NCBI RefSeq assembly: GCF_002305875.1
Contig: NZ_CP022098.1
Span: forward strand, 7,316,001-7,380,000
Reading direction: 5' to 3'
Origin: Cystobacter fuscus
GTDB lineage: Bacteria; Myxococcota; Myxococcia; Myxococcales; Myxococcaceae
DNA length: 64,000 nt
Below are positions 25,501 through 41,699 of the stretch, in pieces. The notes beneath the pieces are model-generated. The model was not told where the DNA came from. It searched no databases and saw only the letters and a list, made by a program, of their open reading frames with translations. Position 1 is the first letter of the stretch. Each line of letters begins with the position of its first letter. The position numbers were made by a program, and so were the translations under genes.

Positions 25501-28500
25501 TGTCGCCCGAGGCCCCGTGCTACCTGCTGTACACCTCGGGCAGCACCGGCCAGCCCAAGGGCGTGCTCCTGCCTCACCGCGCACTGAGCCACCTGCTGCA
25601 CTGGCAGTCGCTCCAGTCGCCCCTGCCCTCGGCCACCACCCTCCAGTTCTCGGCGTTGAGCTTTGACGTCTCCTTCCAGGAGCTCTTCTCCACCTGGTTC
25701 TCCGGCGGCACCCTCGTGCTCCCCTCCTCCGAGGTGCGTCGCGACATCCCCGCCCTCCTGGCCCTCATGGCTCGCCAGGGCGTGCAGCGTCTCTTCCTGC
25801 CCTTCGTCGCCCTCCAGTCCCTCGCCGATGCCGTCTCCCACGGCGCTCCTCTTCCCGAGCGCCTGCGCGAAGTCGTCACCGCGGGCGAGCAGCTCCAAGT
25901 CACCCCCGCCCTCGTCTCCTTCTTCCAGCGCCTGCCGCAGTGCGTGCTGGAGAACCAGTACGGCCCCACCGAGAGCCATGTGGTGAGTGCCTACCGGCTG
26001 CGCGGCGCTCCGGCAGAATGGCCCCGCCTGCCACCCATCGGCTCGCCCCTGCCCCACTGCCCGCTCTACGTCCTGGACCCGCACGGCCAGCCGTGTGCCC
26101 CCGGCGTGCCCGGGGAGCTGTTCATCGGTGGCGAGCAACTCGCCCTCGGCTACCACGCCCGCCCCTCACTCACCGCCGAGCGCTTCGTCCCCGATCCCTT
26201 CAGCACCACGCCCGGCGCCCGCCTGTACCGCACCGGAGACCGGGCGCGGTGGAACGCCGAGGGCATGCTGGAGTACCTCGGCCGCCTGGACGGACAGGTG
26301 AAGGTGCGTGGCTTCCGCATCGAAACCGGCGAGGTGGAAGCCGCCCTGCGCGAGGCCCCCGGCGTCACCGACGCGGCGGCCGTGGTGCGCGAGGACTCCC
26401 CCGGCGACAAGCGCCTGGTGGGCTACGTCGTGCTCCCCTCCACTACACCCTGGGAGCCCGAGGCCCTGCGTCAAACCCTGACCCGCCGCCTGCCCGAGTA
26501 CATGCTGCCCTCGGCCCTGGTGCGCCTGGATGCCCTGCCCCTGACACCCAGTGGCAAGCTGGCTCGCCGCCTGCTGCCCGTGCCCGACTCTGACAGTCTG
26601 CGCGGCGCCGCCCCCTTCGTCGCTCCCTCCTCTCCCCTGGAGCAGACACTGGTGGACACCTTCGCCCAGGTGCTGGGCGTGGTACGCGTGAGCGTGGACG
26701 ACCACTTCTTCAACCTCGGCGGCCACTCCCTGCTCGCCACCCAGGTGGTGTCTCGTCTGCGCAGTGCCCTCGGCGTGGACCTCCCCCTGCGCGAGTTGTT
26801 CGAGGCTCCCACCGTTCGCGCGCTCGCCCAGCGCCTCCAGGCAATCATCCCAGCCCCGACCCGCCGGGTATCCGCTCCGGTCATCGTCCCCCGCTCGGTC
26901 GAGGCGGAGCTGTCGTTCGCGCAGCAGCGGCTGTGGTTCCTCGACCAGTACCAACCGGGCAGCGCGCTCTACAACATGCCCGCCGCGCTGCGACTGGAAG
27001 GCCCGCTCGATGTAAGCGCCCTGCGCAACACGTTCACCGAGCTGGTGCGTCGCCATCAGGTACTGCGCACCACCTTCCGGATCCGCGAGGAAGTCGCCCG
27101 CCAGGTCATCGCGCCCGCGACGGGTTGGACGCTGGACATCGAGGACCTGGCGCAGCTCCCCTCGGAGCAGCGGCGAGCCGAGGCCCTGCGGCTGGCCCGT
27201 GACGAGGCCCGCATGCCCTTCGATCTCGCGCGGGGCCCGCTGTTGCGCACGCGCGTGCTGCGGCTGTCTCCCCGGGAGCACCTGCTGCTGGTGACGATGC
27301 ACCACATCATCTCGGATGGCTGGTCCATGGCCGTGCTGATCCGCGAGGTGGTGGCGCTCTACGAGGCCTTCTCCACGGGCAAGCCATCACCCCTGCCCGA
27401 GCTGCCCATCCAGTACGTGGACTACGCCGTGTGGCAGCGCGAGTGGCTCCAGGGCGAGGTACTGGAGCAACAACTCGCCTACTGGAAACAGCAGCTCGAG
27501 GACGTGCCCCCCGCGCTGGAGCTGCCCACCGACTGGCCGCGCACCGCGGATCCGCTCAACCCAGGCGCCTCGCTGAAGGTCGAGCTGTCGCCGAGGTTGA
27601 TGCACGGGCTGAAGGCACTGTGCCAGCGCGAGGGCGCCACGCTGTTCATGGGCCTGCTGGCGGGCTTCCAGCTCCTGCTGGCGCGCTACAGCGGGCAGGA
27701 GGACCTGTGCGTGGGAGCGCCCATCGCCGGCCGCACCCAGGCACAGACCGAGGGGCTCATCGGCTTCTTCGTCAACACGCTGGTGCTGCGCACGCGGCTG
27801 GAGGGCAATCCCACCTTCCGCGAGCTGCTCGGCCGCGTGCGGGAAGTGACACTCGGGGCCTATGCCCACCAGGACGTGCCCTTCGAGAAGCTCGTCGAGG
27901 TGCTGCAACCCCCGCGTCAGCTCGGACGTACGCCTTTCTTCCAGGTGATGTTGGCCCTGCTCAACACGCCCTCGGAGACGCTGTCCGTCTCCGGGCTGAG
28001 GATCGAGCCGATGCCCCTGGACGGTGGCACGTCCCGGTTCGACTTCTCGCTCTCCCTCACCGAGACCCCGGGCGGGTTGAGCGGCGAGCTCGAGTACCGG
28101 ACGGATCTGTTCTCGGCCGGCACGGCGGCGCGGATGATGGAGCACCTGCGCCTGCTGCTGGAGGACGCGGTGGCACATCCCGAGCGCCGTGTGTCCTCGC
28201 TGTCCTTCCTGTCCGAGACGGAGCGGCACCGGGTGCTGGTGGAATGGAACGCCACCGCGGCGGACTTCCCACGGGACACCCTGGTCCACTCGCTCTTCGA
28301 GACCCAGGCCGCGCGCACGCCCGAGGCGGTGGCGGTGGAGTTCCAGGGCTCCACCCTCACCTATGCCTGGTTGGAGCGGCGCGCGCGCCGGCTCGCCCAC
28401 CACCTGCGAGGGCTCGGCGTGCGCGCGGGGGACCGGGTCGCGCTGTGCGTGGAACGATCGCTGGAGATGATGGTGGGCCTGGTGGGCATCCTCCAGGCGG

Positions 28501-31500
28501 GCGCCGCGTACGTCCCGATGGATCCCTCCACGCCCCCCGAGCGCCTGGCCTTCATGCTGGCGGACACCGGTGCGCCCGTGCTGCTCACCCAGGAGCACCT
28601 GCGCGCCACGCTGCCCTCCTTCGCGGGCCACCTCGTGACGCTCGAGTCGGGCGAGTGGATGCGCTCGGACGACGCGCCCGCGCCGCTCGACTCCGGCGTG
28701 ACGGCGGAGCATCCCGCCTACGTCATCTACACCTCCGGGAGCACGGGCCAACCCAAGGGCACGCTGCTGAGCCACCGGGGCCTGGTCAACAACATGACGT
28801 GGCTCATCTCCACGTTCGGCCTGAGCGCCGGGGATCGGGTGCTCCAGAAGACGACCCTGAGCTTCGATGCCGCGGTCTCGGAGTGCTGGGCCTCGCTGCT
28901 GGTCGGCGGCCCGCTGGTGCTCGCCCCGCCCACGGCCCACCGGGATCCCACCGCCCTGGTGGACTGCGTGGTGCGCGAGCGCATCCACGTGCTGCAACTG
29001 GTGCCCTCGCTGCTGCGCTTCATGCTGGAGGAGCCCGGCCTCGCCCGAGCCACGCACCTGCGCTTGATTCTCTGCGGCGGTGAAGCGCTGAGCGCGGAGC
29101 TGGGCGTGCGCCTGCGCGCGATCCTGCCCCAGGTCCGACTGGCCAACCTCTACGGCCCCACCGAGACCACCATCGATGCCACCTGGGCCTCCGTCTCGGG
29201 AGAGGAGTCCACCGGGGCCCCGCTGCCCATCGGACGGCCGGTGACCAACACCCAGGCGTACGTGCTGGATGGCGCGGGGAGCCCGGTGCCCGTGGGCGTG
29301 CCCGGAGAGCTGTACATCGGCGGCGTGCAACTGGCCCACGGCTACCTGGGCCGGCCCGCGCTCACCGCCGAGCGCTTCGTGCCCCATCCCTTCAGCTCCG
29401 AGCCCGGAGCGCGGCTGTACCGCACGGGAGACCGGGCCCGGTGGTCGCCGGACGGGCAGCTCCAGTTCCTGGGGCGTGTCGACTTCCAGGTGAAGCTGCG
29501 CGGCCTGCGCATCGAGCTGGGGGAGATCGAGAGCGTGCTCTCCCGCCACCCGGCGGTGCGGGAGGTGGCGGTGCTGGCGCGCGAGGATCTCCCGGGAGGC
29601 GAGGGCCTGGTGGCCTATGTCACCCCACGTCCGGGCCAGGTGCTGGAGGAAGCCGCCCTGCGTGCCGTCCTGCGCCAGGGCCTGCCCGAGTACATGGTGC
29701 CCGCGGCCTTCGTGGTGCTGGACGCCCTGCCCCTCACGCGCAGCGGCAAGCTGGATCGCAAGGCGCTCCCGGCGCCCGTGGCGTCCGCCTCCGAGGAGAG
29801 CTTCCTCGCGCCGGACACGGAGACGGGCAAGCGGCTCGCCGCGCTCTGGGGGGAGTTGCTCGGCCTGGAGCGGGTGGGAGCGCGGGATGACTTCTTCGCG
29901 CTGGGTGGCCACTCGCTGCTCGCCACGCGGTTGCAGTCGCGCATCCGCGGGGCCTTCGAGGTGGAGCTGCCCCTGCAGGCGCTCTTCGAGGCGAGGACCC
30001 TGGAGCAGCAGGCCGCGCGCGTGGAGGCGCTCCTGGGGCTGGCCCGGCCGCTCCAGGTGCCCCCACTGCGACCCATGCCTCGCCAGGCGCTCATGCCGCT
30101 GTCCTTCGCCCAGCAGCGGCTGTGGTTCCTGGAGCAGCTCGAGCTGGGCCTGCCCACCTTCAACGTCCCCATCGTCCTGCGACTGCGGGGGGTGCTGGAC
30201 GTGGCGGGGCTCGAGCACTCCTTCCAGGAGATCCTGCGCCGGCACGAGGCGCTCCGGACGAGCTTCGAGCAGGGGCCGGAGGGTCCCGCGCAGAGGGTGC
30301 ACCCCTCGGTGGAGTGGGTGCTCGGCCGGGTGGACCTGAGAGCGATGCCCACCGAGGCGCGTGAGCGCGAGGAGCGGCGGCTGGCGAATGAGGAGGCACG
30401 CAAGCCCTTCGTGCTGACCGAGGGGAGACTCCTGCGCGCCTCGTTGCTGTGGCTCCAGGACGAGGAGCACCTGCTGCTGTTGACCCTGCACCACATCGTC
30501 TCGGACGGCTGGAGCCTGGGCGTGCTGGTGCGCGAGCTGATGGAGCTGTACGCGGCGCGCTACGAGGGGAGGACGGCGCGGCTGCCCGCGCTGCCGGTGC
30601 AGTACGCGGACTACGCGGCCTGGCAGCGGCAGTGGCTGCGGGACGAGGTGCTGGAGGAGCAGCTCGGGTACTGGCGGCGGCGGTTGGAGGGAGCGCCGGC
30701 GGTGCTGGAGCTGCCGGCGGATCGACCCCGGCCCGCGACGCGCACGTACCGGGGAGGCCGGCTGCTGTCGAGGTGGAGCGGAGAGCTGACACGGAAGTTG
30801 GAGGCACTCGCCCTGCGCGAGCACTCCACGCTCTTCATGGTGCTGCTGGCGGGCTTCCACACGCTGCTGCACCGCTATACGGGGCAGACGGACGTGGTGG
30901 TGGGCACGGACGTGGCCAACCGCAACCGCCTGGAGACCGAGCCGCTCATCGGCTTCTTCATCAACCAGCTCGTGCTCCGGCTGGGACTGGAGGGCAACCC
31001 CACCTTCGGCGAGCTGCTCGCCCAGGCGAAGCGGGTGTCGATGGAGGCCCACACGCACCAGGACGTGCCCTTCGAGGAGGTGGTGCGCGCGCTCAACCCG
31101 GAGCGCAGCACGGCCCACGCGCCGCTCTTCCAGGTGAAGCTGGTGCTGCACAACGCGCCCCTGCCGATGCCCAGGCTGCCCGGATTGACGCTGAGCAGCG
31201 AGCACCCGGCCGAGGCGATGTCCAAGCTGGACCTGACGCTGCTGGTGAACCCCACGGCCGAGGGACTGGTGTGCGAGTGGATGTACAGCACGGACCTCTT
31301 CGACGCCTCCACGGTGGAGCGCATGGCCCGGCACTTCGAGCGCCTGATGGAGGGCGTGGTGGCCGGAGGAGGACGGTCGCGGCTGTCCGAGCTGCCGCTG
31401 CTGACGGAGGAGGAGCGACGGCGGGTGCTGGTGGAGTGGAACGACACCGCGAGGCCCTACGCGCGGCGGTGCCTGCATGAGCTCGTCTCCGAGCAGGCGA

Positions 31501-34079
31501 AGAGGACGCCCGAGGCGGTGGCGGTGAGCGCGGGCGGCGAGCGGCTCACCTACGGGGAGCTGGAGCGGCGGGCCAACCAGCTCGCGCATTGGCTCCAGGC
31601 GTTGGGAGTGGGAGCGGAGACGCGGGTGGGCCTGTTCGTGGAGCGGCGGGCGCACGCGCTGGTGGGCCTGCTGGGCATCCTCAAGGCGGGAGGGGCCTAC
31701 GTGGCGTTGGATCCCTCGGCCGCGCGCGTGCCGACGCGGGTGCGGCACGTGCTCGAGGACGCGAGGATCCAGATCATCGTCACCGAGGAGTCCCTGGCGA
31801 ACGAGCTGCCCGCGCAGGGCGAGTTCCTGGTGAGCCTGGACGCCGGGGACGGGCTGCTGGAGGCGCAACCCGAGGAGCCGCCCGAGTCCCGGGCGGGGCC
31901 GGACAACGTGGCGTACGTCATCTACACGTCCGGGAGCACGGGGCAGCCCAAGGGGGTGTGCATCGAGCACCAGCACCTGGCGAGCTACGTGGCGGCGGTG
32001 AGCGAGCGCCTGGAGCTGCCCCGGGGGATGAGCTTCGCGTCGGTATCGACGCTGGCCGCGGACCTGGGCCACACGGCGCTCTTCCCCACGCTGTGCGCGG
32101 GGGGCGCGGTGCACCTGGTGGACAAGGAGACGGCCTCGGACGCGGCGCGGATGGCGGCCCATGGGCGGGAGCACGGCGTGGAGGGGTTGAAGATCGTCCC
32201 GACGCACCTGGAGGCGCTGTTGTCGGGCGCGGACGCCGCGGCGGTGCTGCCGCGCCGACGCCTGGTGCTGGGTGGGGATCGCTCGGAGTGGGCGCTGGTG
32301 GAAAAGGTGCACGCCCTGGCGCCGGAGTGCGAGGTGTTCAACCACTACGGCCCGACGGAGACGACGGTGGGGGTGCTGGCGGAGAAGCTGGAGCGCGGGG
32401 CACGGGGCTCGGGAACGGTGCCACTGGGCCGGCCACTGGGGAACGTGCGGGCCTACGTGCTGGACGGGTACGGCCAGCCCGTGCCGCCGGGCGTGCCGGG
32501 CGAGCTGTTCATCGGCGGGCGGAGCGTGGGCCGAGGCTACCTGGGCCGGCCGGACCTGACGGCGGAGCGCTTCGTGCCGGATGGCTTCAGTGGGGAGGCC
32601 GGGGCGCGGCTGTACCGGACGGGAGACCGGGTGCGGTGGCTGGAGACGGGCCGCATCGAGTTCCTCGGCCGAGTGGATCACCAGTTGAAGATCCGCGGCT
32701 ACCGGGTGGAGCTGGGCGAGGTGGAGGCGGAGCTGGGCCAGCACCCCGGCGTGAGCGAGTGCGTGGTGGTGGCGCGCGAGGAGGCCGGAGGGAGCAAGCA
32801 CCTGGTGGCGTACGCGGTGGGCAAGCCGGGGCACGCGCTCGAGGAGCGAGGACTGCGCGTGTTCCTGGAGCAGCGGCTGCCGGACTACATGGTGCCCACG
32901 GCCTTCGTGGTGCTGGAGGCGATGCCGCTCACCTCGAACGGAAAGGTGGATCGCAAGGCACTGCCCGCCCCCGCCCAGCGGGAGGCGAGCGAGGCGTACG
33001 TGGAACCGCGCACGGAGACGGAGCGGAAGCTGGCGGAGCTGTGGAGGGAGTTGCTCGGCGTGCCGCGCGTGGGCGTGCACGACGACTTCTTCGAGCTGGG
33101 CGGACACTCGCTGCTGGCCACGCAGGTGGTGGCGCGCGTGGGCACCCTGTTCGACGTGCAGATCGCGGTGATTGATCTGTTCGAGGCGCCGCGGCTGGAG
33201 GGACTGGCGGCGCGCATCGACTCGGGCCGCACGTCGGACTCGCCGCTGGTGGCACTGAGGAAGGGAGGCGGCGCGAGGCCCTTCTTCTGCGTGCACGGCG
33301 TGGACGGCGACGCGATGACCTACCTGGAGCTGGCGAAGCGGATGGAGGCGGACCAGCCCTTCTACGCCCTCCGGTCGCTGGAGAACGGGACCGAGAAGAC
33401 GGTGGAGGAGATGGCCGCGCGCTACCTGGAGGCCATCCAGGAGGTGCAGCCCGAGGGCCCCTACCTGTTGGGCGGCTGGTCCATGGGAGCGCGCGTGGTC
33501 TACGAGATGGCGCGGCAGCTCGAGGAGCGGGGCGAACGGGTGGATCTGCTGGTCATCATGGACGCGCGCGCCCATGACGGAGACTTCAAGCTGGAGCCGC
33601 TCGAGCCGGGGATGATGAACCCGGCGGTGTTCAAGTTCACCAACCACCTGCGGCGGATAGGAGCGCACCACCCGCGGGCGGCGGACCTCCTCCAGCAGTT
33701 GGATTCGGCGGAGCTGTGGTCGGTGCTGGACGGGCCTCCGGAGGCGAGCACCGCGCTCCAGTTGGACGAGGAGGCATGCGCGGAGCTGCGGACCCTGTGG
33801 CGGGTGTACGAGCGCAACTGGACCGCCGCGCGGATGTACGCCCCGAAGCCGTACGGAGGCCCGCTGGTGCTGCTGCGCGCCAGCGACGCCTACCCCGGCG
33901 AGAAGGCGGTAACAGCGGAGGAGTACGGCTGGGAGCCGCTGGCCCGGGGAGGCGTGGAGGTGCACGAGCAGCCGGGCACGCACATTGGCATCGTCACCCT
34001 GCCCCTGGTGGAGCACCTGGCCGCGCGGCTGAGGAGCCTGCTCAAGCGGACGCGGGAGCCGGGGACGGAGGCCGGGTAG
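8520..34079 (+). CDS. Single-gene hybrid NRPS-PKS lipopeptide synthetase (8519 aa)
   Basis: One uninterrupted frame of 8519 codons. The domain order (residues approximate) is FAAL 1-570, ACP 600-665, C 681-1125, A 1141-1627, T 1640-1715, KS 1734-2160, AT 2259-2550, ACP 2650-2725, C 2743-3180, dead A part 3205-3420, luciferase-like monooxygenase 3431-3780, dead A part 3784-3965, then C-A-T four times (3996-5040, 5062-6106, 6128-7166, 7188-8232) and TE 8237-8515. It should load a fatty acid as acyl-AMP, add an amino acid, one malonate and four amino acids, and release by TE. Five A domains keep the core motifs and the A10 Lys. No KR, DH, ER, epimerisation or methylation domain was seen, and no mbtH-like gene is in the window. 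Start ATG 8520 lacks an obvious ribosome binding site. The product is unknown; functions are inferred by collinearity. Confidence 0.95.
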   Translation: MPQPRSLVDLLEERSSTRAEQRLYTFLDDEGADEAALSYGELYTRARRIGAALQELAPPGERAVLLYPPGTDYVSGFFGTLFSGLVAVPAYPPDPSRLERTLPRLRAIIHDARATVVLTTSFVLSMVEELFQDAPDLKALRWLATDTLSPGGETLWRKPSLSPESLAFLQYTSGSTGTPRGVMLSHSNLLHNLALIRGAFQTRDDSVGVIWLPPYHDMGLIGGILVPLAQGFHTALLSPLSFLKRPRSWLEALTRLGGTISGGPNFAFELCVRRIPPEQREGLDLSRWQVAFCGAEPIRPATLDRFTEAFAPHGFRRESFYPCYGLAEATLIVSGGLASAPPLLRDVDASSLERGLAVVPPTHEAARTLVGCGTSLQDQRIAIVEPESLRELPPGEVGEIWVKGPSVAQGYWQQPEESVHSFSARTASGEGPFLRTGDLGFLDGHELYVTGRRKDLLILRGRNLYPQDLEFTVEQSHPALRPGCGAAFSIEEDGEERLVVVQEVDARKLDGTVEELAALLRQRLAERHEVRPHALVLIQPGSLPKTSSGKVQRRACRAAFLAGELRAVHVWRASESTPPPVASPASPATPADSVEARVLALIAARLGARAHSLEPHQPLTRLGLDSLAAVELAHALEQDLGVALPMETLLRGVSASELAREISARQASASPRGAIPRAPRDRPLPLSFAQQRLWFLDRLEPGSAFYNVPVVSRVTGPLDVSALEKSLQALVRRHETLRTVFREERGEPSQHILDTLALPLGVVDLSALPEDAREREAQRLAREEARRPFDLSRGPLLRASLVRLGAGRHLLLLTPHHIISDGWSLRVLVRELEALYSALSTGRTPSLPALPLQYADYAVWQRESLRGERLEALLGWWRTYLVGAPPVLELPGDRPRPPSQSYQGAHVVHRLERESWARVKALAHHEGTTPFVALLAGFQLLLHRYSGQEELVVGVDLAHRTRPEIAGLIGLFVNPLPVRGDLRGAPSFRELLARVHAGVLGVQAHQDLPFDELVRALNPERSLAHAPLFQVKLVLQDAPSTPPGASLVLDSSLGDTGATKLDLTLSLTETTRGLELLGEYATDLFDASTVSRMLAHLCLLLEGAAAAPDRPVHALPLLSEPERHRALVEWSHTAPAIPDSLAHLLFEEQVRRTPDAPAVSLGTRTLSYRQLDARANQLAWHLASLGVGPEMVVGVHLERTPEWAIAVLGVLKAGGSFLPLDPSYPSARLALMLREAQVPVIISREALADQLASQGELLVLLDSDGPALDARPETALSPAPAVTPGHLAYVIFTSGSTGTPKGTLLEHRGLCNTARATHEALGLRPGERMLQLASIGFDASVSELFSTLLSGAHLVLAPPESLLPGPPLQKVLADERITVITATPTSLAPLEPEALPHLHVVASVGEACTPELARRWKPGRRFLNAYGPTEASVCATLDPDVDPRQPSIGRPIAGARTYVLDARLEPVPVGVPGELYVGGAGVARGYLHRPALTAERFVPHPFSSVPGERLYRTGDRVRLLPDGRLEFLGRRDAQVKVRGVRVELGEVEAALAQHPGVRQVVVLVREHAGESRLVAYVVAGEDVEPATLRRLLRERLPDALVPSAIVRLDALPLSPGGKVDRQALPSPEQASPVPPAPSAGPRSELEQRIASVWARVLQVPHVGPHDHFFDDLGGSSLLVVKASTHLRDELGHDVPVTHLFEHPTVSALAARLQSERPAPAAAPEPRRTAADEDSHDIALIGMAGRFPGAADVHAFWENLRQGVESISRFAPEELEPSPLFSEALRTHPDFVPAGGVLEGAEGFDAGFFELSPREATWMDPQQRLFLQCAWHALEDAGYDPERFHEPISLYAGAGSSSTHVLAVLGQTRKDPASLFEALGTTTGENVATKTAYKLQLGGESLNVYTACSTGLVAVHLACQSLRTRQSDLALAGAVKVSLPQRTGYLFQEGMILSPDGHCRAFDASARGTVLGNGLGVVVLKRLADAVRDGDSIYAVIKGSSLNNDAAAKVSYTAPSVQGQSQVISRALASAGVDASSIGYVEAHGTGTSLGDPIEIAALTRAFRAQTGLTGYCAIGSVKTNIGHLDTAAGIVGLIKAALALHHGEIPPSLHFERPNPEIDFERGPFFVNTALRPWTRTEGPRRAGVSSFGIGGTNAHVVLEEAPRQDGGQGSHRPRQLVTLSARSASALEAMGHALAGFVENHPEVNLADLAFTHHVGRKAFEFRRAFVVEDAAGLVRALEEAGPPSEVRDLNAARSRRVAFLFPGQGAQSVRMAQELYASEPLFRKELDACLALLPAAGLTEPLRPVLFPEPGAEAAAESLLSSPRIALPALLAVEIALARLWRSFGFEPSALLGHSFGEYAAACVSGVLSLEDALRLAVIRGELMAQLPPGGMLAVGLSAEALAPLLPEAVEISALNGPDRCTVSGPLEALDALERTLAGRHVGLMRLSSAHAFHSRAVEPLMAGLERAVAGLTLNPPAIPYISSLTGTWIRPEEATSPRYWARQMREPVRFASGLNTLVEAGWSWFIETGPDQNLTALARPRLRAESTALGVPSLRRNGTSTSDSQALLESLGSLWRAGAALDWNGFHAHERRRRIPLPGYPFEETRFPLEQRPATPTESLPVVAAVPPPPPPPAPVPTSEAPVRRAPLGDIQQRLTELWRERLGVEEIGPDDNFLDLGGNSLMAAQLLTRLRETFQARIPLNDLFEAPTIATLAARIEARLQEEPRSGEAAGTAMRPVPRPEPIPLSYVQERVWEMELREPGSSLFNEPLAVRLSGALRPELLEHGINEVIRRHESLRTIFPQVDGKAWPRILPEVRVSLPVVDLSGFAGDREAEAMRLARLAPTAPFPLAWGPLVRVQLLRMAEAEHVLLLTIHHLVADTISLVNFIGEAMAFYGGLLTGQPVPVPVPALPLQYIDFTLWQRRALADGSLAAQQTYWRQRLARRPGPLPLLLDRPRVPGARRQGARHAFAFPRALGAALHAFGQREGLTPYMTLLAGFKAWLARCTGQDDIIVGTSIGNRTRPELEPQIGYVAHALALRTSLAGDPSFRALALRVRDTTLSAFAHPDVPYEQLLGELEPGEEARLSRLFDAIFLLHTQGVSAPLLELPGPKLSYFDVTGLPAQYGTSLADMSLLMREDAQGFSGTLEYAVDLFDASTIVRMLSQLEALLTDAVASPDKPLSQLSLDGPSRAAELPGASISQCTSLPALLSAQAERTPDAVALRQGDQSLSWRVLRAHALALASRLRARGVGPGIPVAVSLEPSPERAVALWGVLAAGGAYALVSPSEELSSLGREEAAPLLIMSPSAPPPPGLDEAHVLRLSLSDARSPESLAPAVDGNGLACLVREPEHGERARVMWSHHNLIERFSALDARVEARPGETWWSLPDAADPSGLELLWALTRGLQVVFPARAPSRLVALRPERSATRPLDFSLFYFANDAEASGRRKYQLLLDGARFADTHGFSAVWTPERHFHAFGGPYPSPTATSAALAMITERVSLRAGSVVLPLHDPIRVAEEWSVIDNLSNGRAGVSFATGWNPNDFVFAPENFQQRPEALRKGLEEIRTLWKGGGVRRANGAGNEVDITIRPRPVQAELPVWITAAFNPDTFRLAGALGAGLLTNVLGLGQDFEELARKIALYRQARREAGHDRGHVVLMLHTFVAGSPEDVKRQAREPLTRYFRSSVELFNGLVASQGLGLDVRDLTPQDVEVLLERGVSRYLEAGGMFGTPQTLAPRVEQLRRADVDEVACLVDFGLAHEAAMEGLRHLDVLRRQSQEPVAEPTASVLVEADGIQLLAESLKRSPPAHLRGTVALVEALARMPDAAEVLGPVRTLVLDGADAIPAPLATALQRVASARVVAPATLLPGAREDDSRASRVVLDAAGRRAPVGVVGELFLGGDAVPLGFWKAPEVTRARLRASPDGSGARLYGTGAPARYRADGEVELLSTLARQRPASQELPPVPSTPPPAPIPVHTEAPALQGEVIPRVSREAPPPLSFAQQRLWFLDQYQPGSALYNMPAAMRLEGSLDVAALGRAFAELTRRHEALHTTFQAREGAPIQVISLPEQRALEVEDLGHLPPAERWAEGLRLAREEACRPFDLTHGPLMRTRVLRLTENEHLLLVTMHHIVSDSWSIAVLVREVVALYEAFAAGKASPLPELPIQYADYAVWQREWLRGPTLAGQVEYWRKQLADVPPALELPTDWPHTANTSNPGTSLRVTFSRALTQGLRTLCRHEKGTLFMGLLAGLQALLARYTGQEDICVGAPIAGRTQPQTEALIGFFVNTLVLRTRLEGNPTFRELLGRVREVTLGAYAHQDVPFEKLVEELQPPRQPERTPFFQVALVLINTPSAEISTRGLTFHPLEVDSGTSKFDFTLILTESPQGMSGALEYRSDLLSAATAARMVEHLRLLLEDAVAHPERRVSSLALLSEAERRQVLVEWNARTADFPPPALVHQLFEAQAARTPDTLAVVFEDTQLTYVRLERQANRLAHYLHSLGVRAGDCVALCVERSLELAVGVLGVLKAGAAYVPLDPAYPAERLAFMVEDAGSPLVLTHSRLLSSLPSGTRALCLDTEAEALSRQPTYAPALELSPEAPCYLLYTSGSTGQPKGVLLPHRALSHLLHWQSLQSPLPSATTLQFSALSFDVSFQELFSTWCSGGTLVLPSSEVRRDIPALLALMARQGVQRLFLPFIALQALADAVSHGAPLPERLREVVTAGEQLQVTPALVSFFQRLPQCVLENQYGPTESHVVSAYRLRGAPTEWPRLPPIGSPLPHCPLYVLDAHGQPCAPSVPGELFIGGEQLALGYHARPSLTAERFVPDPFSTTPGARLYRTGDRARWNAEGVLEYLGRLDGQVKVRGFRIEMGEVEAALREAPGVTDAAAVVREDSPGDKRLVGYVVLPSTTPWEPETLRQALARRLPEYMLPSALVRLDTLPLTPSGKLARRLLPVPDADSLRGAAPFVAPSSPLEQTLVDTFAQVLGVARVSVDDHFFNLGGHSLLATQVVSRLRSALGVDLPLRELFEAPTVRALSRRIQTLASTEQRETRATVRVTRTGLTEAELSFAQQRLWFLDQYQPGSALYNMPAALRVEGTIDVAALERAFTGLIHRHEVLRTTFQVREGKPVQLISPATTWTLKVEDLGHIPPEQRRAEALRLAHEDARQPFDLARGPLLRTRLLRLSEREHLLPITLHHIISDGWSIAVLIRDMVALYESCITGGPSPLPELPIQYVDYTVWQREWLQGEVLKQQLDYWRTQLADVPPALELPTDWPHTADTRHPGASMRVELPHELIQGLGALCQREGATLFMGLLAGLQTLLARYTGQDDICVGAPIAGRTQTQTEGLVGFFVNTLVLRTRMEGNPTFRELLGRVREVTLGAYAHQDVPFEKLVEELQPPRQPERTPFFQVALVLLNAPSARLSVPGLELEMLDLDTGTSKFDFTLLLTETPGGLNATLEYRSDLFSAATAARMMEHLRLLLEDAVAHPERRLFSLSLFSEAERRRVLVEWNARTADFPPPALVHQLFEAQAARTPDTLAVVFEDSQLTYARLERQANRLAHYLHSLGVRPGDRVALCVERSLELTVGVLGVLKAGAAYVPLDPAYPAERLAFMVEDAGSPLVLTHSRLLSSLPSGTRALCLDTEAEALSRQPTYAPALELSPEAPCYLLYTSGSTGQPKGVLLPHRALSHLLHWQSLQSPLPSATTLQFSALSFDVSFQELFSTWFSGGTLVLPSSEVRRDIPALLALMARQGVQRLFLPFVALQSLADAVSHGAPLPERLREVVTAGEQLQVTPALVSFFQRLPQCVLENQYGPTESHVVSAYRLRGAPAEWPRLPPIGSPLPHCPLYVLDPHGQPCAPGVPGELFIGGEQLALGYHARPSLTAERFVPDPFSTTPGARLYRTGDRARWNAEGMLEYLGRLDGQVKVRGFRIETGEVEAALREAPGVTDAAAVVREDSPGDKRLVGYVVLPSTTPWEPEALRQTLTRRLPEYMLPSALVRLDALPLTPSGKLARRLLPVPDSDSLRGAAPFVAPSSPLEQTLVDTFAQVLGVVRVSVDDHFFNLGGHSLLATQVVSRLRSALGVDLPLRELFEAPTVRALAQRLQAIIPAPTRRVSAPVIVPRSVEAELSFAQQRLWFLDQYQPGSALYNMPAALRLEGPLDVSALRNTFTELVRRHQVLRTTFRIREEVARQVIAPATGWTLDIEDLAQLPSEQRRAEALRLARDEARMPFDLARGPLLRTRVLRLSPREHLLLVTMHHIISDGWSMAVLIREVVALYEAFSTGKPSPLPELPIQYVDYAVWQREWLQGEVLEQQLAYWKQQLEDVPPALELPTDWPRTADPLNPGASLKVELSPRLMHGLKALCQREGATLFMGLLAGFQLLLARYSGQEDLCVGAPIAGRTQAQTEGLIGFFVNTLVLRTRLEGNPTFRELLGRVREVTLGAYAHQDVPFEKLVEVLQPPRQLGRTPFFQVMLALLNTPSETLSVSGLRIEPMPLDGGTSRFDFSLSLTETPGGLSGELEYRTDLFSAGTAARMMEHLRLLLEDAVAHPERRVSSLSFLSETERHRVLVEWNATAADFPRDTLVHSLFETQAARTPEAVAVEFQGSTLTYAWLERRARRLAHHLRGLGVRAGDRVALCVERSLEMMVGLVGILQAGAAYVPMDPSTPPERLAFMLADTGAPVLLTQEHLRATLPSFAGHLVTLESGEWMRSDDAPAPLDSGVTAEHPAYVIYTSGSTGQPKGTLLSHRGLVNNMTWLISTFGLSAGDRVLQKTTLSFDAAVSECWASLLVGGPLVLAPPTAHRDPTALVDCVVRERIHVLQLVPSLLRFMLEEPGLARATHLRLILCGGEALSAELGVRLRAILPQVRLANLYGPTETTIDATWASVSGEESTGAPLPIGRPVTNTQAYVLDGAGSPVPVGVPGELYIGGVQLAHGYLGRPALTAERFVPHPFSSEPGARLYRTGDRARWSPDGQLQFLGRVDFQVKLRGLRIELGEIESVLSRHPAVREVAVLAREDLPGGEGLVAYVTPRPGQVLEEAALRAVLRQGLPEYMVPAAFVVLDALPLTRSGKLDRKALPAPVASASEESFLAPDTETGKRLAALWGELLGLERVGARDDFFALGGHSLLATRLQSRIRGAFEVELPLQALFEARTLEQQAARVEALLGLARPLQVPPLRPMPRQALMPLSFAQQRLWFLEQLELGLPTFNVPIVLRLRGVLDVAGLEHSFQEILRRHEALRTSFEQGPEGPAQRVHPSVEWVLGRVDLRAMPTEAREREERRLANEEARKPFVLTEGRLLRASLLWLQDEEHLLLLTLHHIVSDGWSLGVLVRELMELYAARYEGRTARLPALPVQYADYAAWQRQWLRDEVLEEQLGYWRRRLEGAPAVLELPADRPRPATRTYRGGRLLSRWSGELTRKLEALALREHSTLFMVLLAGFHTLLHRYTGQTDVVVGTDVANRNRLETEPLIGFFINQLVLRLGLEGNPTFGELLAQAKRVSMEAHTHQDVPFEEVVRALNPERSTAHAPLFQVKLVLHNAPLPMPRLPGLTLSSEHPAEAMSKLDLTLLVNPTAEGLVCEWMYSTDLFDASTVERMARHFERLMEGVVAGGGRSRLSELPLLTEEERRRVLVEWNDTARPYARRCLHELVSEQAKRTPEAVAVSAGGERLTYGELERRANQLAHWLQALGVGAETRVGLFVERRAHALVGLLGILKAGGAYVALDPSAARVPTRVRHVLEDARIQIIVTEESLANELPAQGEFLVSLDAGDGLLEAQPEEPPESRAGPDNVAYVIYTSGSTGQPKGVCIEHQHLASYVAAVSERLELPRGMSFASVSTLAADLGHTALFPTLCAGGAVHLVDKETASDAARMAAHGREHGVEGLKIVPTHLEALLSGADAAAVLPRRRLVLGGDRSEWALVEKVHALAPECEVFNHYGPTETTVGVLAEKLERGARGSGTVPLGRPLGNVRAYVLDGYGQPVPPGVPGELFIGGRSVGRGYLGRPDLTAERFVPDGFSGEAGARLYRTGDRVRWLETGRIEFLGRVDHQLKIRGYRVELGEVEAELGQHPGVSECVVVAREEAGGSKHLVAYAVGKPGHALEERGLRVFLEQRLPDYMVPTAFVVLEAMPLTSNGKVDRKALPAPAQREASEAYVEPRTETERKLAELWRELLGVPRVGVHDDFFELGGHSLLATQVVARVGTLFDVQIAVIDLFEAPRLEGLAARIDSGRTSDSPLVALRKGGGARPFFCVHGVDGDAMTYLELAKRMEADQPFYALRSLENGTEKTVEEMAARYLEAIQEVQPEGPYLLGGWSMGARVVYEMARQLEERGERVDLLVIMDARAHDGDFKLEPLEPGMMNPAVFKFTNHLRRIGAHHPRAADLLQQLDSAELWSVLDGPPEASTALQLDEEACAELRTLWRVYERNWTAARMYAPKPYGGPLVLLRASDAYPGEKAVTAEEYGWEPLARGGVEVHEQPGTHIGIVTLPLVEHLAARLRSLLKRTREPGTEAG
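10560..13665 (+). other. NRPS module 1 (C-A-T), predicted aromatic, Tyr-like amino acid
   Basis: The C domain has HHIISDGWS (first His ~816). The A domain has FTSGSTGTPKG and NAYGPTEASVC. Aligning its pocket by hand to GrsA gives the ten-residue code DASTAVAVCK, closest to a published Tyr-type code (DASTVAAVCK). The specificity is a prediction. The T domain carries its Ser in DLGGSSL (~1676). This C domain should attach the fatty acyl group to the first amino acid. Confidence 0.75.
13719..16690 (+). other. PKS module (KS-AT-ACP) without reductive domains
   Basis: The KS has catalytic Cys ~1907 in YTACSTG plus EAHGTGTSLGD and KTNIGHLDTAAG, so all three catalytic residues are present. The AT has GHSFGEY (Ser ~2357) and HAFH (~2453), a motif associated with malonyl-CoA. 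The post-AT segment LPGYPFEETRF runs straight into a Pro-rich linker and an ACP with LGGNSL (Ser ~2684). There is no room for KR, DH or ER, so the extended unit should remain a beta-ketone. Confidence 0.85.
16746..20410 (+). other. C domain plus dead A domain interrupted by a luciferase-like monooxygenase; no carrier
   Basis: The C domain keeps HHxxxD but has T where G is usual (HHLVADT, ~2878). The following A-like region lacks the A3 P-loop (CLVREPEHGERARVMW at that place), the A5 motif and the A10 Lys, and keeps only traces of A6/A7 (GELFLGGDAVPLGFW, LYGTG). Between its halves sits a ~350-residue FMN-dependent luciferase-like monooxygenase of the natural-product type. It begins LDFSLFYFANDAEA and contains FSAVWTPERHFHAFGG and RAGVSFATGWNPNDF. 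No T domain follows; a Pro-rich linker leads to the next C domain. The MOX most likely acts on the chain held by the upstream PKS ACP (inference). Confidence 0.85.
20505..23640 (+). other. NRPS module (C-A-T), predicted Pro-like
   Basis: The C domain has HHIVSDSWS (~4129). The hand-aligned A-domain code is DVQFVAQVVK, which differs at two of ten positions from Pro-type codes such as DVQFIAHVVK. The Gln in place of the usual His is a possible sign of an altered cyclic substrate. The T domain has NLGGHSLLATQ. The A-T DNA is almost identical to that of the next module. Confidence 0.7.
21885..23640 (+). repeat. Duplicated A-T segment, copy 1
   Basis: About 1.75 kb covering an A domain and its T domain is nearly identical, including at silent positions, to 25085-26830. 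The spacing between copies (~3.2 kb) is one module. Confidence 0.85.
23707..26840 (+). other. NRPS module (C-A-T), same Pro-like specificity
   Basis: The C domain has HHIISDGWS. The A domain has the same ten-residue code, DVQFVAQVVK, as the preceding module, and the T domain has NLGGHSLLATQ. Two identical consecutive residues are therefore predicted in the product. Local identity to the previous module marks a recent duplication or gene conversion. Confidence 0.7.
25085..26830 (+). repeat. Duplicated A-T segment, copy 2
   Basis: Partner of the segment at 21885-23640. Only scattered silent and conservative changes are seen. The C domains between the copies are less alike, except for short shared blocks. 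Confidence 0.85.
26905..30020 (+). other. NRPS module (C-A-T), predicted Gln-like
   Basis: The C domain has HHIISDGWS and starts with the same ~70 bp as the two preceding C domains. The A domain is clearly different. It has IYTSGSTGQPKG and NLYGPTETTID, with hand-aligned code DASQLGLIDK, closest to a published Gln code (DAWQFGLIDK). The T domain has ALGGHSLLATR. Specificity is a prediction. Confidence 0.65.
30085..33215 (+). other. NRPS module (C-A-T), predicted Asp-like
   Basis: The C domain has HHIVSDGWS. The A domain has STLAADLGHTALF in place of the usual FDxS segment. Its hand-aligned code is DLTKVGHVGK, nine of ten identical to the published Asp code DLTKVGHIGK. The T domain has ELGGHSLLATQ. 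This is the last residue before release. Confidence 0.72.
33230..34070 (+). other. C-terminal type I thioesterase domain
   Basis: An alpha/beta hydrolase of ~280 residues at the end of the synthetase. The nucleophile motif is GWSMGA (Ser ~8321), an acidic residue follows in VIMDARAHDGD, and the distal His is in PGTHIGI. All triad members appear present. Whether it hydrolyses or cyclises the chain cannot be read. Confidence 0.85.
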
Positions 34080-35845: not shown

Positions 35846-37591
35846 TCAAGCGGCCACGAACTGCCGCGCAACCAGGCGGCGGTAGAGGCCCTCCTGGGCC
35901 ATGAGGGCGGCATGGCTGCCGCTCTGCACCACCCGGCCGCCCTCCACCACCAGCACCCGGTCCGCGCCCGTCACCGTGGACAGGCGGTGGGCGATGATGA
36001 GCGTGGTGCGCCCCCGCATGAGCCGATCCAGGGCCTCCTGCACCAGGTGCTCACTCTCGGCGTCCAGGGCGCTGGTGGCCTCGTCGAGCACCAACAGGCG
36101 TGGATCCTTGAGCACTGCGCGGGCGATGGCGATGCGCTGCTTCTGCCCACCAGAGAGCTGCACCCCGCGCTCACCCACGTGAGTGCGGTAGCCCTCGGGG
36201 AAGCGGGAGATGAACTCGTGGGCGTTGGCGGCGCGAGCAGCGGCCTCCACCTCGGCGTCGGTGGCATCCATGCGGCCGTAGCGGATGTTGTCCGCGATGG
36301 AGTCGGAGAAGAGCAACGGCTCCTGCGCCACCGAGCCCACCTGCTGGCGCAGCCACTCCGGATCCAGCGTGCGCAGATCCACGCCATCCAGCATCACGCG
36401 CCCCCCTTGAGGGTCGTACAGACGCACCAGCAGGCTGGCGATGGTGGACTTGCCCCCGCCCGAGGGGCCGACCAGGGCCACCACCTCGCCCGGTTGCAGT
36501 TCCAGGTCAATCTCCTGGAGCACGGGCACGTCCGAGCGCGCGGGATAGGCGAAGCGCACTGCCTGGTAGGTGACGCGGCCCTTCACCTCCGGGAGCTGCT
36601 CGCCACCCGTGGAGGGAATGGCCGGGACGCGATCGATCATCTCGAAGACGCGCTCGGCCGCGCCGGAGGCCCGCAGCAGCTCCGCCCACAGGTCCGTCAG
36701 CCCGCTCAGGGCCACGGAGACCAGCGTGGTGTAGACGAGGAAGGAGGTGAGGCTGCCCATGGTGAGCTCGCCCCGCAGCATCAACCGGGTGCCGTACCAC
36801 AGCACCAGGGCCGCGGCGGCGAGCCCCCCGAACGAGGTGCCCACGACATAACCCGTGGACAGGCGGGTGCGCTCGCGCGCCAGTTCGAAGGCGGTGCCCA
36901 GCCGCTGACGGTAGCGGCCCACCTCGTGGCGCTCGGCGGCGAAGGCGCGCACCGTGCGGATGCCGGAGAGGATCTCGTCCGCCACGCCGGTGGCCTCGGC
37001 GAGCGCGGCGTGCACCCGGCGCGAGCTCAGCCGGATGCGGCGGCCGAAGAGCACGGTGGTGATGACCATGGGCGGCACGACGGCCAGCATCAACAGGGTG
37101 AGCCGGGGCGAGGTGTAGAGGAGCATGCCCAGCCCCCCCACCACCTGCGCGCCGCTGCGCAGCGCCGTGGCGATGTTGGCGCTCACCACGTTCTGCAACA
37201 CCGTGGTGTCCGCGCTCAGGCGGCTGGTGAGCTCCCCCGTCTTGTGCTGATCGAAGAAGCCCACCTCCTGGGCCACCAGCCGCGAGAACAGCTCGTGCCG
37301 CAGCCGGACCACGATGCGCTCACCCGTCTGGGTGAAGAAGTAGTAGCGCAGCGAATCGGCGCCGGCCTGCACCGCGAAGACGACGACCATGGCGAGCACG
37401 ACCCGGTCGATGAGGGTGGCGTCCTTCGACCCGAGCGCCTCGTCGATGATGAAGCGCACGGCCTGGGGGTAGACGAGGGACAAGCCGCTGCCGAGCAGCA
37501 GGAAGAACAAGGCCACGCACAGGGTCCGCCACTCGGGCTGGACCAGGGCCAGGAGGCGGCGCACGACACCGGAGGAGGAGACCTGGGACAT
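35846..37591 (-). CDS. ABC exporter, fused membrane and ATPase domains (ABCB/MsbA-like half-transporter)
   Basis: A 581-residue half-transporter that should work as a homodimer in the inner membrane. Residues ~15-310 contain six predicted transmembrane helices of the type I exporter fold, starting with LCVALFFLLLGSGLSLVYPQA. The ATPase domain has Walker A GPSGGGKST (~375), Q-loop VAQEPLLFS, signature LSGGQKQR (~476), Walker B LLVLDEATSALD (~498) and the H-loop His in IIAHRLST. All are intact. Family members flip lipids or export drugs and peptides. Adjacency to the lipopeptide synthetase makes it the best candidate for product export or self-protection (inference). It lies 16 bp downstream of a nucleotidyltransferase-like gene on the same strand, so the two are probably one operon. 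Confidence 0.9.
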   Translation of the reverse strand: MSQVSSSGVVRRLLALVQPEWRTLCVALFFLLLGSGLSLVYPQAVRFIIDEALGSKDATLIDRVVLAMVVVFAVQAGADSLRYYFFTQTGERIVVRLRHELFSRLVAQEVGFFDQHKTGELTSRLSADTTVLQNVVSANIATALRSGAQVVGGLGMLLYTSPRLTLLMLAVVPPMVITTVLFGRRIRLSSRRVHAALAEATGVADEILSGIRTVRAFAAERHEVGRYRQRLGTAFELARERTRLSTGYVVGTSFGGLAAAALVLWYGTRLMLRGELTMGSLTSFLVYTTLVSVALSGLTDLWAELLRASGAAERVFEMIDRVPAIPSTGGEQLPEVKGRVTYQAVRFAYPARSDVPVLQEIDLELQPGEVVALVGPSGGGKSTIASLLVRLYDPQGGRVMLDGVDLRTLDPEWLRQQVGSVAQEPLLFSDSIADNIRYGRMDATDAEVEAAARAANAHEFISRFPEGYRTHVGERGVQLSGGQKQRIAIARAVLKDPRLLVLDEATSALDAESEHLVQEALDRLMRGRTTLIIAHRLSTVTGADRVLVVEGGRVVQSGSHAALMAQEGLYRRLVARQFVAA

Positions 37592-37607: not shown

Positions 37608-38639
37608 TCAAACCGCGGGCGCGGGAGGAGAGGAGTATCGGGCGATGCGGCGGAGCGACTCCCGGGCGGCCTCGCGCACTTCCGGCTCGGGCGCGTCCTC
37701 CAGCCGCTTCAAGGCGGTGGGGACCTCGTCACCGGCATAAAGGATGTCACCCAGCCGCCGGGCCGCCAGCGCCCGGGAGCCCACCCCACCCCGCTCCAAC
37801 TCGGCCAGCAGGAAGTCCCTGTAGAGGCCCAGGAACCGGTTCTCCGCGTCCAGCATGCCCTCGCACAGCGAGCGCAGATACGCCCGGTCCTCCTCGGCGG
37901 AAGGCACCTGATAGCCCCAGCGCGCACGGCACTCATAGATGCGCTCGAACAGGAGCGTCCGCTCGTCGTTCACGTGCTGGCGATGCGCCTCGATGGAGGC
38001 GCGCTTGAAGAAGGCCTGGGCTCCGGACTTCAGCGCCGCCTCGGCCGCCGCGATCCGGGCCGCGATGGAGACGAGCTCCTTGAAGCCCGGCTGGGGCTGG
38101 CCCCGCGCGTCCATCACCGCGGAGTAGTCGTAGCCGAGGAACGCTCCGCGCGGATCCGGATACGCGAGGGGGTAGCGCAGCGGTTCGCCCTCGGCGCGCG
38201 AGCGGGCGCGCTCCATGAAGGCGTAGGGACGGTGCATGGCGACGCGCACCCACTCCTCGACGGGCATCAGCGGAATGCGCTCGCGGAGGTCCTCTCCCGC
38301 GAGGAACAGGGAGGCCTGCTTGAGGTTGACGGCCCCGTCGCGCAACAGCCGGGACTCCTCCACCGCGCTCGAGTCCACGGGGATGCGGCTCAACAGGCCC
38401 ACGGACTGGCGCAGGCGCTCGTGCCGCGCCTGCTCGCCCTCGAGGAAGCGGTCCTTGAAGACCAGGGTCACGTCGAGGTCGCTGTCGGCCACGGCCTCGC
38501 CCATGGCGTGGCTGCCCAGCAGGTAGCAGGCCCGGAGGCGCCCCGGGAAGGCCATCTGACACAGGCTGATGAAGCCATAGAGGACGGAGTTGGCCGCCAT
38601 GTCCTCCGTCATGCCGACCAACGACAGCTCTTCATCCAT
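37608..38639 (-). CDS. Nucleotidyltransferase-domain protein
   Basis: A 343-residue protein. Residues ~38-60 read CYLLGSHAMGEAVADSDLDV then TLVF, the GS..(x)..DxD signature of the pol-beta-type nucleotidyltransferase superfamily. The middle (~100-260) resembles the helical part of cytoplasmic nucleotidyltransferases that modify small molecules such as aminoglycosides. The last ~70 residues are helical and HEAT-like (ALAARRLGDILYAGDE, ALKRLEDAPEPEVREAARES). ATG 38639 was preferred over GTG 38642 because a GGGAG lies at proper spacing. It is the first gene of a two-gene operon with the ABC exporter. Chemical modification of a small molecule for resistance is possible, but the substrate cannot be read. 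Confidence 0.75.
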   Translation of the reverse strand: MDEELSLVGMTEDMAANSVLYGFISLCQMAFPGRLRACYLLGSHAMGEAVADSDLDVTLVFKDRFLEGEQARHERLRQSVGLLSRIPVDSSAVEESRLLRDGAVNLKQASLFLAGEDLRERIPLMPVEEWVRVAMHRPYAFMERARSRAEGEPLRYPLAYPDPRGAFLGYDYSAVMDARGQPQPGFKELVSIAARIAAAEAALKSGAQAFFKRASIEAHRQHVNDERTLLFERIYECRARWGYQVPSAEEDRAYLRSLCEGMLDAENRFLGLYRDFLLAELERGGVGSRALAARRLGDILYAGDEVPTALKRLEDAPEPEVREAARESLRRIARYSSPPAPAV

Positions 38640-38687
38640 CACACGGCTCCCTCGTGCCCACCGGCGCGGCGGCGGACAGTCTATCGA

Positions 38688-39953: not shown

Positions 39954-40106
39954 GGGGCGACACTATCGCATGCCCCCAAGGCCGTTCCGCATCCGCCCCG
40001 GGGACGCCCCACGGCCATGTGGGATGGCGGCGCTCCAACGAGTCCGAACCGGATACACTGCCGCTCCTGGTGGTTGCGCGGGGCCACGTCCCGCCGAGGA
40101 ACACGC

Positions 40107-41699
40107 ATGTCTTCGTCGCCCATGTACCTGAAGCAGAACGTCGTCTCCGAGCCTCTCTACAACCAGTGGTACGCGTGGTGGTTCCTGGCCTCGCCGATGA
40201 CGGCCCCGCTCTTCGTGGCCAACCTGCACCTCAAGGTCATGGAGTCCTTCGTGGCCAACCCGGCCATCCACGTGGCGGCCCTGAAGAGTCCCGCCCTGCG
40301 GGGTGGGCCGTACATCAACTACGGCGTGGACAAGGTGAAGGAAGTCCAGGCGTTGCTGGAGCGCACGCGCGCGGAAGAGGCGCTGTCCTTGCGGTACGCG
40401 CAGGCCATGCTGGAGCTGCACAAGCTGCTGGACACGGCGGAGGGCTTCTCGCTGGAGGAGCTGTACCCGCGGGTGCCGGACCTGCTGCGAGGCTACGTGG
40501 AGCTCACGTATGACCTGAACCACCGGGCCTCGCCGCGCTTCTTCGAGTCGCTGCTCTATCGCAGCCCCTTCCACCGCGAGTCCTCGCAGAGCCTGTCCAT
40601 GCGGCTCATCCACCAGGACGCCCGGCCGTATGTCTTCAGCACGCCCCGGCTGGATTCGGTGGACGGCGCCCTGCAGATCAAGCGGCCGTACCGGGACGCG
40701 GCCCTGGATCGGCTCTACGCCATGACGCGCACACCCGGGCCGGTGGAGCCGGTGCGCGAGGCCCTGGGCATCGAGCCGAAGGACCACGACACCTTCGCCT
40801 CCTTCTTCACGCCCGAGCCTCCGCGCCCCGCGCCCCGGTACGACGGCGAGGGGGTGCGCGTGCGCTACTTCGGCCACGCGTGCGTGCTCATCGAGTCGCG
40901 CGGTGTCAGCCTGATGACGGATCCGGTCATCAGCTATGACTTCCCCTCGGAGCTGCCGCGCTACACCTTCGCGGACCTGCCCGAGCGCATCGACTACGTC
41001 CTCATCACCCACGGCCACGCGGACCACTTGATGTTCGAGCCGCTGCTGCAATTGCGCCACCGCATCGGCACCATCGTAGTGCCCGCGAGCAGCGGCGGCG
41101 GGCTGGCGGATCCCTCGCTCAAGCTGATGCTCAAGCATGCCGGCTTCAACAACGTGGTGGCGCTGTCGGAGCTGGACTCGCTGCCGCTGCCGGGGGGAGA
41201 GCTCATCGGCCTGCCCTTCATCGGCGAGCATGGGGATCTCAACATCCAGGCGAAGATCGCCCACCTGGTGCGGCTGGAGGGCAAGAACCTGCTCATGGCG
41301 GCGGACTCCAACGCGCTCGAGCCGCGCCTGTACGAGCACGTGCACCGCGAGGTGGGCGACATCGACATGCTGTGGCTGGGCATGGAGTCGGAGGGAGGCC
41401 CGCTGAGCTGGATGTATGGTCCGCTGCTGCCCGCCCCCATCCAGCGCAAGATGGATCAATCGCGGCGGCTCAACGGCTCCAATGCGGCGCGCGCCATCGA
41501 CATCGTCCAGCGGCTCAATCCCAAGCAGGTGCGCATCTACGCCATGGGCCGCGAGCCCTGGCTCGGCCATGTCATGGTGATGGGCTACCACGAGAACTCG
41601 CCGCAGTTGGTGGAGGCACGCAAGCTGATCGAGTACTGCCGCGAGCGGGGCATCTCCGGGGAGATGCCCTACGGTCAGGCCGAGATGTTGCTGCGCTGA
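40107..41699 (+). CDS. CmlA-type diiron beta-hydroxylase (metallo-beta-lactamase fold)
   Basis: A 530-residue protein with a GAGGA ribosome binding site; CmlA of chloramphenicol synthesis is 532. The N-terminal ~245 residues follow the CmlA-family pattern (YLKQNVVSEPLYNQWYAW, ALRGGPYINYG, LYPRVPDLLRGYVEL, FFESLLYRSPF). The C-terminal half is a metallo-beta-lactamase fold with THGHADH giving H302, H304, D306 and H307. Adding E374 (PFIGEHGDL) and D400 (LMAADSN) reproduces, with a constant offset of three, the iron ligands I recall for CmlA (H305, H307, D309, H310, E377, D403). CmlA hydroxylates the beta-carbon of an amino acid held on an NRPS carrier. A residue of the nearby synthetase, aromatic or Asp, is the likely substrate (inference). 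The reading frame runs 2.5 kb further upstream without a stop, but that part is antisense to other genes. Confidence 0.82.
   Translation: MSSSPMYLKQNVVSEPLYNQWYAWWFLASPMTAPLFVANLHLKVMESFVANPAIHVAALKSPALRGGPYINYGVDKVKEVQALLERTRAEEALSLRYAQAMLELHKLLDTAEGFSLEELYPRVPDLLRGYVELTYDLNHRASPRFFESLLYRSPFHRESSQSLSMRLIHQDARPYVFSTPRLDSVDGALQIKRPYRDAALDRLYAMTRTPGPVEPVREALGIEPKDHDTFASFFTPEPPRPAPRYDGEGVRVRYFGHACVLIESRGVSLMTDPVISYDFPSELPRYTFADLPERIDYVLITHGHADHLMFEPLLQLRHRIGTIVVPASSGGGLADPSLKLMLKHAGFNNVVALSELDSLPLPGGELIGLPFIGEHGDLNIQAKIAHLVRLEGKNLLMAADSNALEPRLYEHVHREVGDIDMLWLGMESEGGPLSWMYGPLLPAPIQRKMDQSRRLNGSNAARAIDIVQRLNPKQVRIYAMGREPWLGHVMVMGYHENSPQLVEARKLIEYCRERGISGEMPYGQAEMLLR

Follow-up and report, generated by a model that had tools for sequence, protein, structure and literature searches.

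A CmlA/FrsH-type diiron hydroxylase in a Cystobacter fuscus lipopeptide cluster, with a terminal aspartate as its favoured substrate

Introduction

The chloramphenicol pathway, a small actinobacterial one, employs CmlA, whose substrate is L-p-aminophenylalanine bound to CmlP. FrsH of FR900359 biosynthesis is a related non-heme diiron monooxygenase that acts on a carrier-bound amino acid (PMC7794379). Beta-hydroxylated residues, among them beta-OH-Asp, are likewise found in the chitinopeptins (PMC9248904). The CmlA/FrsH family is hence already known, and the new point of the locus described here is the strict pairing of one of its members with an AadA-like O-adenylyltransferase. The locus lies in a window of 64,000 nucleotides (the whole stretch of DNA that was analysed, from Cystobacter fuscus contig NZ_CP022098.1, the single contig of a 12.35-Mb genome), to which all positions refer unless another locus is named.

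Results

The gene product is a complete CmlA/FrsH-type protein

The features of the gene are as follows.
40107..41699, plus strand: CmlA-type diiron beta-hydroxylase, 530 aa (Pfam, phmmer against the PDB, alignment, model)
40125..40820, plus strand: CmlA_N domain, residues 7-238 (Pfam)
40857..41693, plus strand: metallo-beta-lactamase-fold catalytic domain, about residues 251-529 (Pfam, structure search)
41010..41027, plus strand: HGHADH, predicted diiron ligands H302, H304, D306 and H307 (alignment)
41226..41228, plus strand: E374 (= CmlA E377), the Glu typical of the CmlA family (alignment, title of 5kil)
41304..41306, plus strand: D400 (= CmlA D403) (alignment)

The gene starts with the ATG at 40107, which has a GAGG about 10 bases upstream, and the alignment of relatives begins at residue 1 of the protein. 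A longer frame of 1369 aa (37590-41699) was considered as a fusion protein and discarded, as over its first 839 codons it covers only the unused strand of genes that run in the minus direction. An earlier reading made from the DNA letters alone (hereafter the sequence-only reading) had recognised an N-terminal domain that follows the family. The Pfam search bore this out with a complete match to CmlA_N (PF18456, 1-232 of 232, 270 bits), followed by a Lactamase_B-family domain, while no TauD match was found by Pfam in the protein. When the PDB was searched with phmmer, FrsH (8a90) ranked top with 446 bits, and CmlA (4jo0/5kik) reached 391 bits.

The CmlA-type assignment had been based on six residues, H302, H304, D306, H307, E374 and D400, said to match the diiron ligands of CmlA at a constant offset of three. 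Alignment with CmlA and its homologues, in which this ligand set could have failed, confirmed it. Residues 302-400 align to CmlA free of gaps, and therefore the offset stays constant at +3. Together with H375, the six residues are invariant in 55/55 aligned homologues including CmlA and FrsH. PDB entry 5kil, titled 'E377D mutant', is consistent with the ligand numbering of CmlA and with E374 being the counterpart of CmlA E377. A Glu at this position, where metallo-beta-lactamase hydrolases have His, is a feature of the CmlA family.

An AlphaFold2 model of the protein (25 aligned relatives as input; pLDDT 84, pTM 0.88) matched FrsH with Z 46.9, TM 0.95 and an rmsd of 2.0 A over 526 residues, and CmlA with Z 44.4 and TM 0.90 over 513 residues. 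The best metallo-beta-lactamase hydrolase reached a Z of only 19.6 over 214 residues, so that a hydrolase-like fold is not favoured. Judged from the alignment and the model, the classification of the gene product as an intact CmlA/FrsH-type diiron beta-hydroxylase is not in doubt. It is predicted to bind two Fe, to be catalytically competent and to act on a carrier-bound residue.

The partner synthetase

The relevant parts of the synthetase are listed below.
8520..34079, plus strand: assembly line, 8519 aa (domain search, A codes)
12045..13562, plus strand: A1, code DASTAVAVC (aromatic-like), with T1 (LGGSSL) at 13533; the rival hydroxylation site
31575..33125, plus strand: A5, code DLTKVGHVG, read as Asp, with T5 (LGGHSL) at 33096; the favoured hydroxylation site
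33315..34019, plus strand: thioesterase after T5, with GWSMG at 33474

The synthetase stops at 34079, which leaves a gap of 6.0 kb to the CmlA-type gene and agrees with the 6 kb noted before. It is the sole NRPS in the window, as had also been stated. Its domains follow the order FAAL-T-C-A1-T1-KS-AT-T-C-LLM monooxygenase-C-A2-T2-C-A3-T3-C-A4-T4-C-A5-T5-TE. The codes of A2 (DVQFVAQVV) and A3 (DVQFVAQVS) are Pro-like, that of A4 (DASQLGLID) comes near to DAWQFGLID, a Gln-type code in relatives, and A1 is closest to DAWTTAAIC, DAATIAAVC and DACTIAAIC domains, i.e. to the aromatic type. These readings, including that of DLTKVGHV as Asp, follow the published specificity code; a literature search for the Asp code string returned no paper. 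Membership of the Leu-specific FrsH subgroup was not borne out, as none of the five partner A codes is recognisable as a Leu code.

The luciferase-like (LLM, TIGR04020-type) monooxygenase is encoded at 18810-19799 (plus strand) inside a broken A domain; it follows KS-AT-T and has no carrier of its own. This architecture may give rise to an alpha-oxidised beta-amino acid unit, as in myxoprincomide. The code readings were anchored in a cystomanamide-like cluster of the same genome, where DLTKIGEVC and DASTVAAVC fit two residues of the published product, Asn and Tyr (PMC9581180).

A conserved operon links the gene to the lipopeptide cluster

Two further genes of the interval are of importance.
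35846..37591, minus strand: ABC exporter, MsbA-type, permease plus ATPase, cluster copy (Pfam, orthologues)
37608..38642, minus strand: Pol-beta-type nucleotidyltransferase, 344 aa, AadA/ANT(3'')-like model (Pfam, co-occurrence, Foldseek)

Between the synthetase and the CmlA-type gene lie three tandem 156-aa ORFs, the ABC exporter, the nucleotidyltransferase and an Ig/PKD-repeat protein; a HerA-like ATPase is encoded downstream. The three ORF copies (34333-35788, plus strand), located between the NRPS and the exporter, have no Pfam match. One relative of 145 aa (73%) occurs in genome G003, and none was seen in the A. violaceum cluster.

A spacing of 6 kb is no proof by itself, as the same NRPS occurs in several genomes with no CmlA gene adjoining it. 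No close CmlA stands beside the orthologous synthetase in G010, G030, G032, G034 and G019, and the accidental neighbourhood that these genomes suggested was overturned by A. violaceum and Corallococcus. In A. violaceum, nucleotidyltransferase(+), CmlA(+) and ABC(+) genes form an operon that is followed by the convergent orthologous NRPS (71, 86, 79 and 76% identity, respectively), while the same three genes are adjacent in the same order in Corallococcus (59-61, 80-83 and 74%). The conserved operon adjoins the orthologous NRPS in the former and lies near it in the latter, in line with the rule that enzymes of the CmlA/FrsH family are encoded together with an NRPS. Orthologues of the exporter (73-79%) sit in the cassette or adjoin the NRPS. 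The three-gene cassette is found about 10 kb from the NRPS in G067; it is missing from G032, where all flanking genes match those of G067 and the Asp module is also absent. In the window and in G003, the distance between the nucleotidyltransferase and ABC genes is 16 bp. CmlA has been flipped to the opposite side there, separated from the nucleotidyltransferase by the Ig/PKD gene. This gene, at 38.7-40.0 kb and absent from the other cassettes seen, is an interloper. Comparison of these loci thus supports, through the conserved operon, the view that the CmlA-type gene is part of the same lipopeptide cluster as the synthetase at 8.5-34.1 kb. The earlier proposal that the cluster reaches 41.7 kb is backed by comparative genomics and not by distance.

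G010 and G030 carry a CmlA copy elsewhere in the genome and an LLM-type NRPS with no CmlA beside it; such a copy would therefore have to act on the LLM-type NRPS in trans. The second CmlA of the window's genome (49%) adjoins an NRPS of its own. Cystomanamides contain two beta-hydroxylated residues (PMC9581180), and the cystomanamide-like cluster, 2.5 Mb away in the same genome, holds its only FkbH. Trans action on cystomanamide was rejected, as a TauD-type hydroxylase of that cluster itself is encoded between its NRPS genes. This 338-aa enzyme (L152:12453-13469; G000 9.86 Mb) is the likely source of the beta-OH residues of the cystomanamide-like cluster.

CmlA homologues with no nearby NRPS were found in Myxococcus and in G019/G025/G034. 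A relative of 60-64% identity, with no NRPS within about 10 kb and in similar context, recurs at loci L105-L111, L113, L064, L065 and L066; L105-L111 and L113 are from Myxococcus spp., with L111 carrying the label Comamonas. This relative is a candidate enzyme for the beta-hydroxy-valine of myxoprincomide, the origin of which was described as unknown (PMC10099666). Two divergent CmlA genes per locus are present in A. violaceum and G002 (L092:6231-7820; L114:3228-4817; L060), suggesting two hydroxylated residues there.

The CmlA subclade co-occurs with a terminal Asp module

The distribution of the enzyme was surveyed in a sample of 96 Myxococcaceae genomes. The subclade that includes the window CmlA (at least 76% identity) is monophyletic with support of 100/99, and the terminal Asp-A-T-TE module was counted at 63% identity or more. 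The subclade is present in 21/96 genomes and the nucleotidyltransferase in exactly the same 21, while the Asp module occurs in all of them and otherwise in G081 only. Hence, the subclade accompanies the module in 21/22 genomes versus 0/74 without it (Fisher p 3e-20, ignoring phylogeny). The same test within single genera gave 6/6 versus 0/21 for g23 and 8/9 versus 0/7 for g26 (p 3e-6 and 1e-3, respectively). As a predictor of CmlA, the synthetase lineage as a whole performed less well (20 shared, 1 and 4 exceptions). In the exceptional G081, which has the Asp module without the window CmlA, the contig stops short of where the cassette would lie, and one of the modules is irregular.

Several different NRPSs adjoin the subclade: the line of the LLM type, lines of seven modules in G010, G087, G096 and G101, and, in G112, a short Ser-Aro-Asp line. 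Across these NRPSs, the A domains for Asp form one lineage with 70-84% identity, the next relative being at 47%, and the Asp-A-T-TE module is the sole demonstrated shared lineage. Being a correlation, the link to the Asp module may have either CmlA or the nucleotidyltransferase as its partner. Separately, a third assembly line in G010 (L157, 9473000-9484999) ends with DLTKVGHVG-TE and is followed by a distant CmlA (about 40%); it is a second case of CmlA beside a terminal Asp-TE module.

The same enzyme in the same cluster might instead hydroxylate the aromatic residue on T1, with the Asp module merely travelling with the nucleotidyltransferase. CmlA itself, which acts on p-aminophenylalanine, is a precedent for such a substrate, and A1 is nearest to aromatic-type A domains. 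A domain of this type is present in every decoded line linked to the CmlA subclade and in most lines decoded beside related CmlAs (G002, G010, G016, G017, G060, G086, G087, G112). None was found, however, in the lines that were decoded next to more distant CmlAs in G032 (contig C20) and G000. Subclade-specific residues are few, with only V13, S61 and H169 fixed in the subclade and rare in sister clades; none is near the ligands in sequence, and there is no clear sign of an altered substrate pocket. In addition, Phe is the residue to which the kasumigamide enzyme KasD was assigned (PMC5061366). The genomes that separate the two sites are G019, G034, G032 and G081, which have an LLM-type NRPS without the window CmlA. 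A1 is kept in 4/4 of them, whereas the Asp-TE module is detectable in 1/4 (G081) and nowhere in the other three, the synthetase being interrupted by a contig end in G019 and G034. Because these four CmlA-less genomes keep A1 and three of them have no Asp-TE, Asp on T5 is favoured over the aromatic residue on T1, which we regard as rather unlikely. The sequence-only reading had named an aromatic or an Asp residue, on T1 or T5; co-occurrence narrows this to Asp on the terminal carrier, with the aromatic residue on T1 staying the main rival.

Every LLM-type line that goes with the window CmlA also has the Pro-like modules, and these are altered in G032 and G081, as would suit an enzyme that modifies Pro (A2, A3). 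Such modules are absent, however, from the NRPSs beside this CmlA in G010, G087, G096, G101 and G112 (contig C5). For the Gln-like residue (A4) as the target, it counts against the idea that A4 varies between lines. Loss of catalytic activity is opposed by the intact state of all ligands and by the 98% identity that the protein retains in G003. We consider it improbable that any of these three situations applies.

The nucleotidyltransferase resembles antibiotic adenylyltransferases

The nucleotidyltransferase has the G[ST]..SDxD motif, the third carboxylate and the C-terminal helical domain of AadA/ANT(3'')-like proteins, and its residues S54, D55, D57 and D90 are invariant in 16/16. With its model (pLDDT 81), Foldseek gave AadA and AAD(9) as best matches at TM 0.41-0.57 and an identity of only 13-14%. 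AadA and AAD(9) adenylylate hydroxyls of streptomycin and spectinomycin. The resemblance of the model points to a possible role in masking and self-protection or in tailoring; a literature search on NRPS/adenylyltransferase self-resistance found nothing. The idea that it belongs to a G010-like cluster that has been lost was dismissed, as the protein is 70-71% identical to the LLM-linked copies of G030 and A. violaceum versus 53-55% to those of G010 and G006. Next to the nucleotidyltransferase of A. violaceum, L092:8012-8833 encodes a protein with the C-terminal domain of a 5'-nucleotidase but no catalytic domain.

Discussion

We think it probable, with some reserve, that the CmlA/FrsH-type diiron enzyme of this cluster hydroxylates T5-bound Asp to give a C-terminal beta-hydroxy-Asp. 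A5 would load Asp onto T5 (~33.1 kb), and the CmlA-type enzyme would dock on this last carrier and hydroxylate the beta-carbon of the bound Asp by using O2 and its diiron centre. This step would precede chain release by the thioesterase, so that the lipopeptide would end in beta-hydroxy-aspartate. The nucleotidyltransferase and the ABC exporter would belong to the same functional unit.

A bolder version, which we hold to be distinctly unlikely as a whole, is that the CmlA/AadA-like pair first places a hydroxyl on the terminal residue and then transfers AMP onto the hydroxylated residue or another hydroxyl of the peptide, masking the product before ABC export. The pair would then be an add-on cassette that tracks one type of end module between assembly lines.

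If Asp is indeed the substrate, the cluster would encode an Asp beta-hydroxylase of the diiron (CmlA) type; those established so far are, as far as is known, all Fe/2-oxoglutarate enzymes. For this family of myxobacterial lipopeptides, so far uncharacterised, T5 would also provide a precise address of the hydroxyl. That the enzyme is strictly paired with one like the antibiotic adenylyltransferases suggests a step of self-protection or tailoring, and module-level co-occurrence can be used for assigning trans-acting tailoring enzymes to residues. The triad of hydroxylase, adenylyltransferase and Asp module is the point worth following.

Compared with described systems, FrsH (8a90) is the closest solved relative over the full length, with 38-40% identity and the same ligands, although it belongs to a different lineage and cluster. 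FrsH hydroxylates Leu on FrsA/FrsD, whereas no Leu code is recognisable in the present synthetase, for which Asp on its last carrier is favoured. CmlA of chloramphenicol biosynthesis (4jo0, 5kik) shares the domain order, the ligands at an offset of 3 and the full-length fold at 36% identity. TauD-type Asp/Asn beta-hydroxylases (SyrP/AspH kind, ctm cluster) carry out the same overall reaction on carrier-bound Asp or Asn but, unlike the window enzyme, have an unrelated fold and use Fe/2-oxoglutarate as cofactor. KasD of kasumigamide and the chitinopeptin enzymes are likewise CmlA homologues in NRPS clusters that make beta-OH peptides (PMC5061366, PMC9248904). Their link from enzyme to residue is a prediction as it is here, where module-level co-occurrence has narrowed it.
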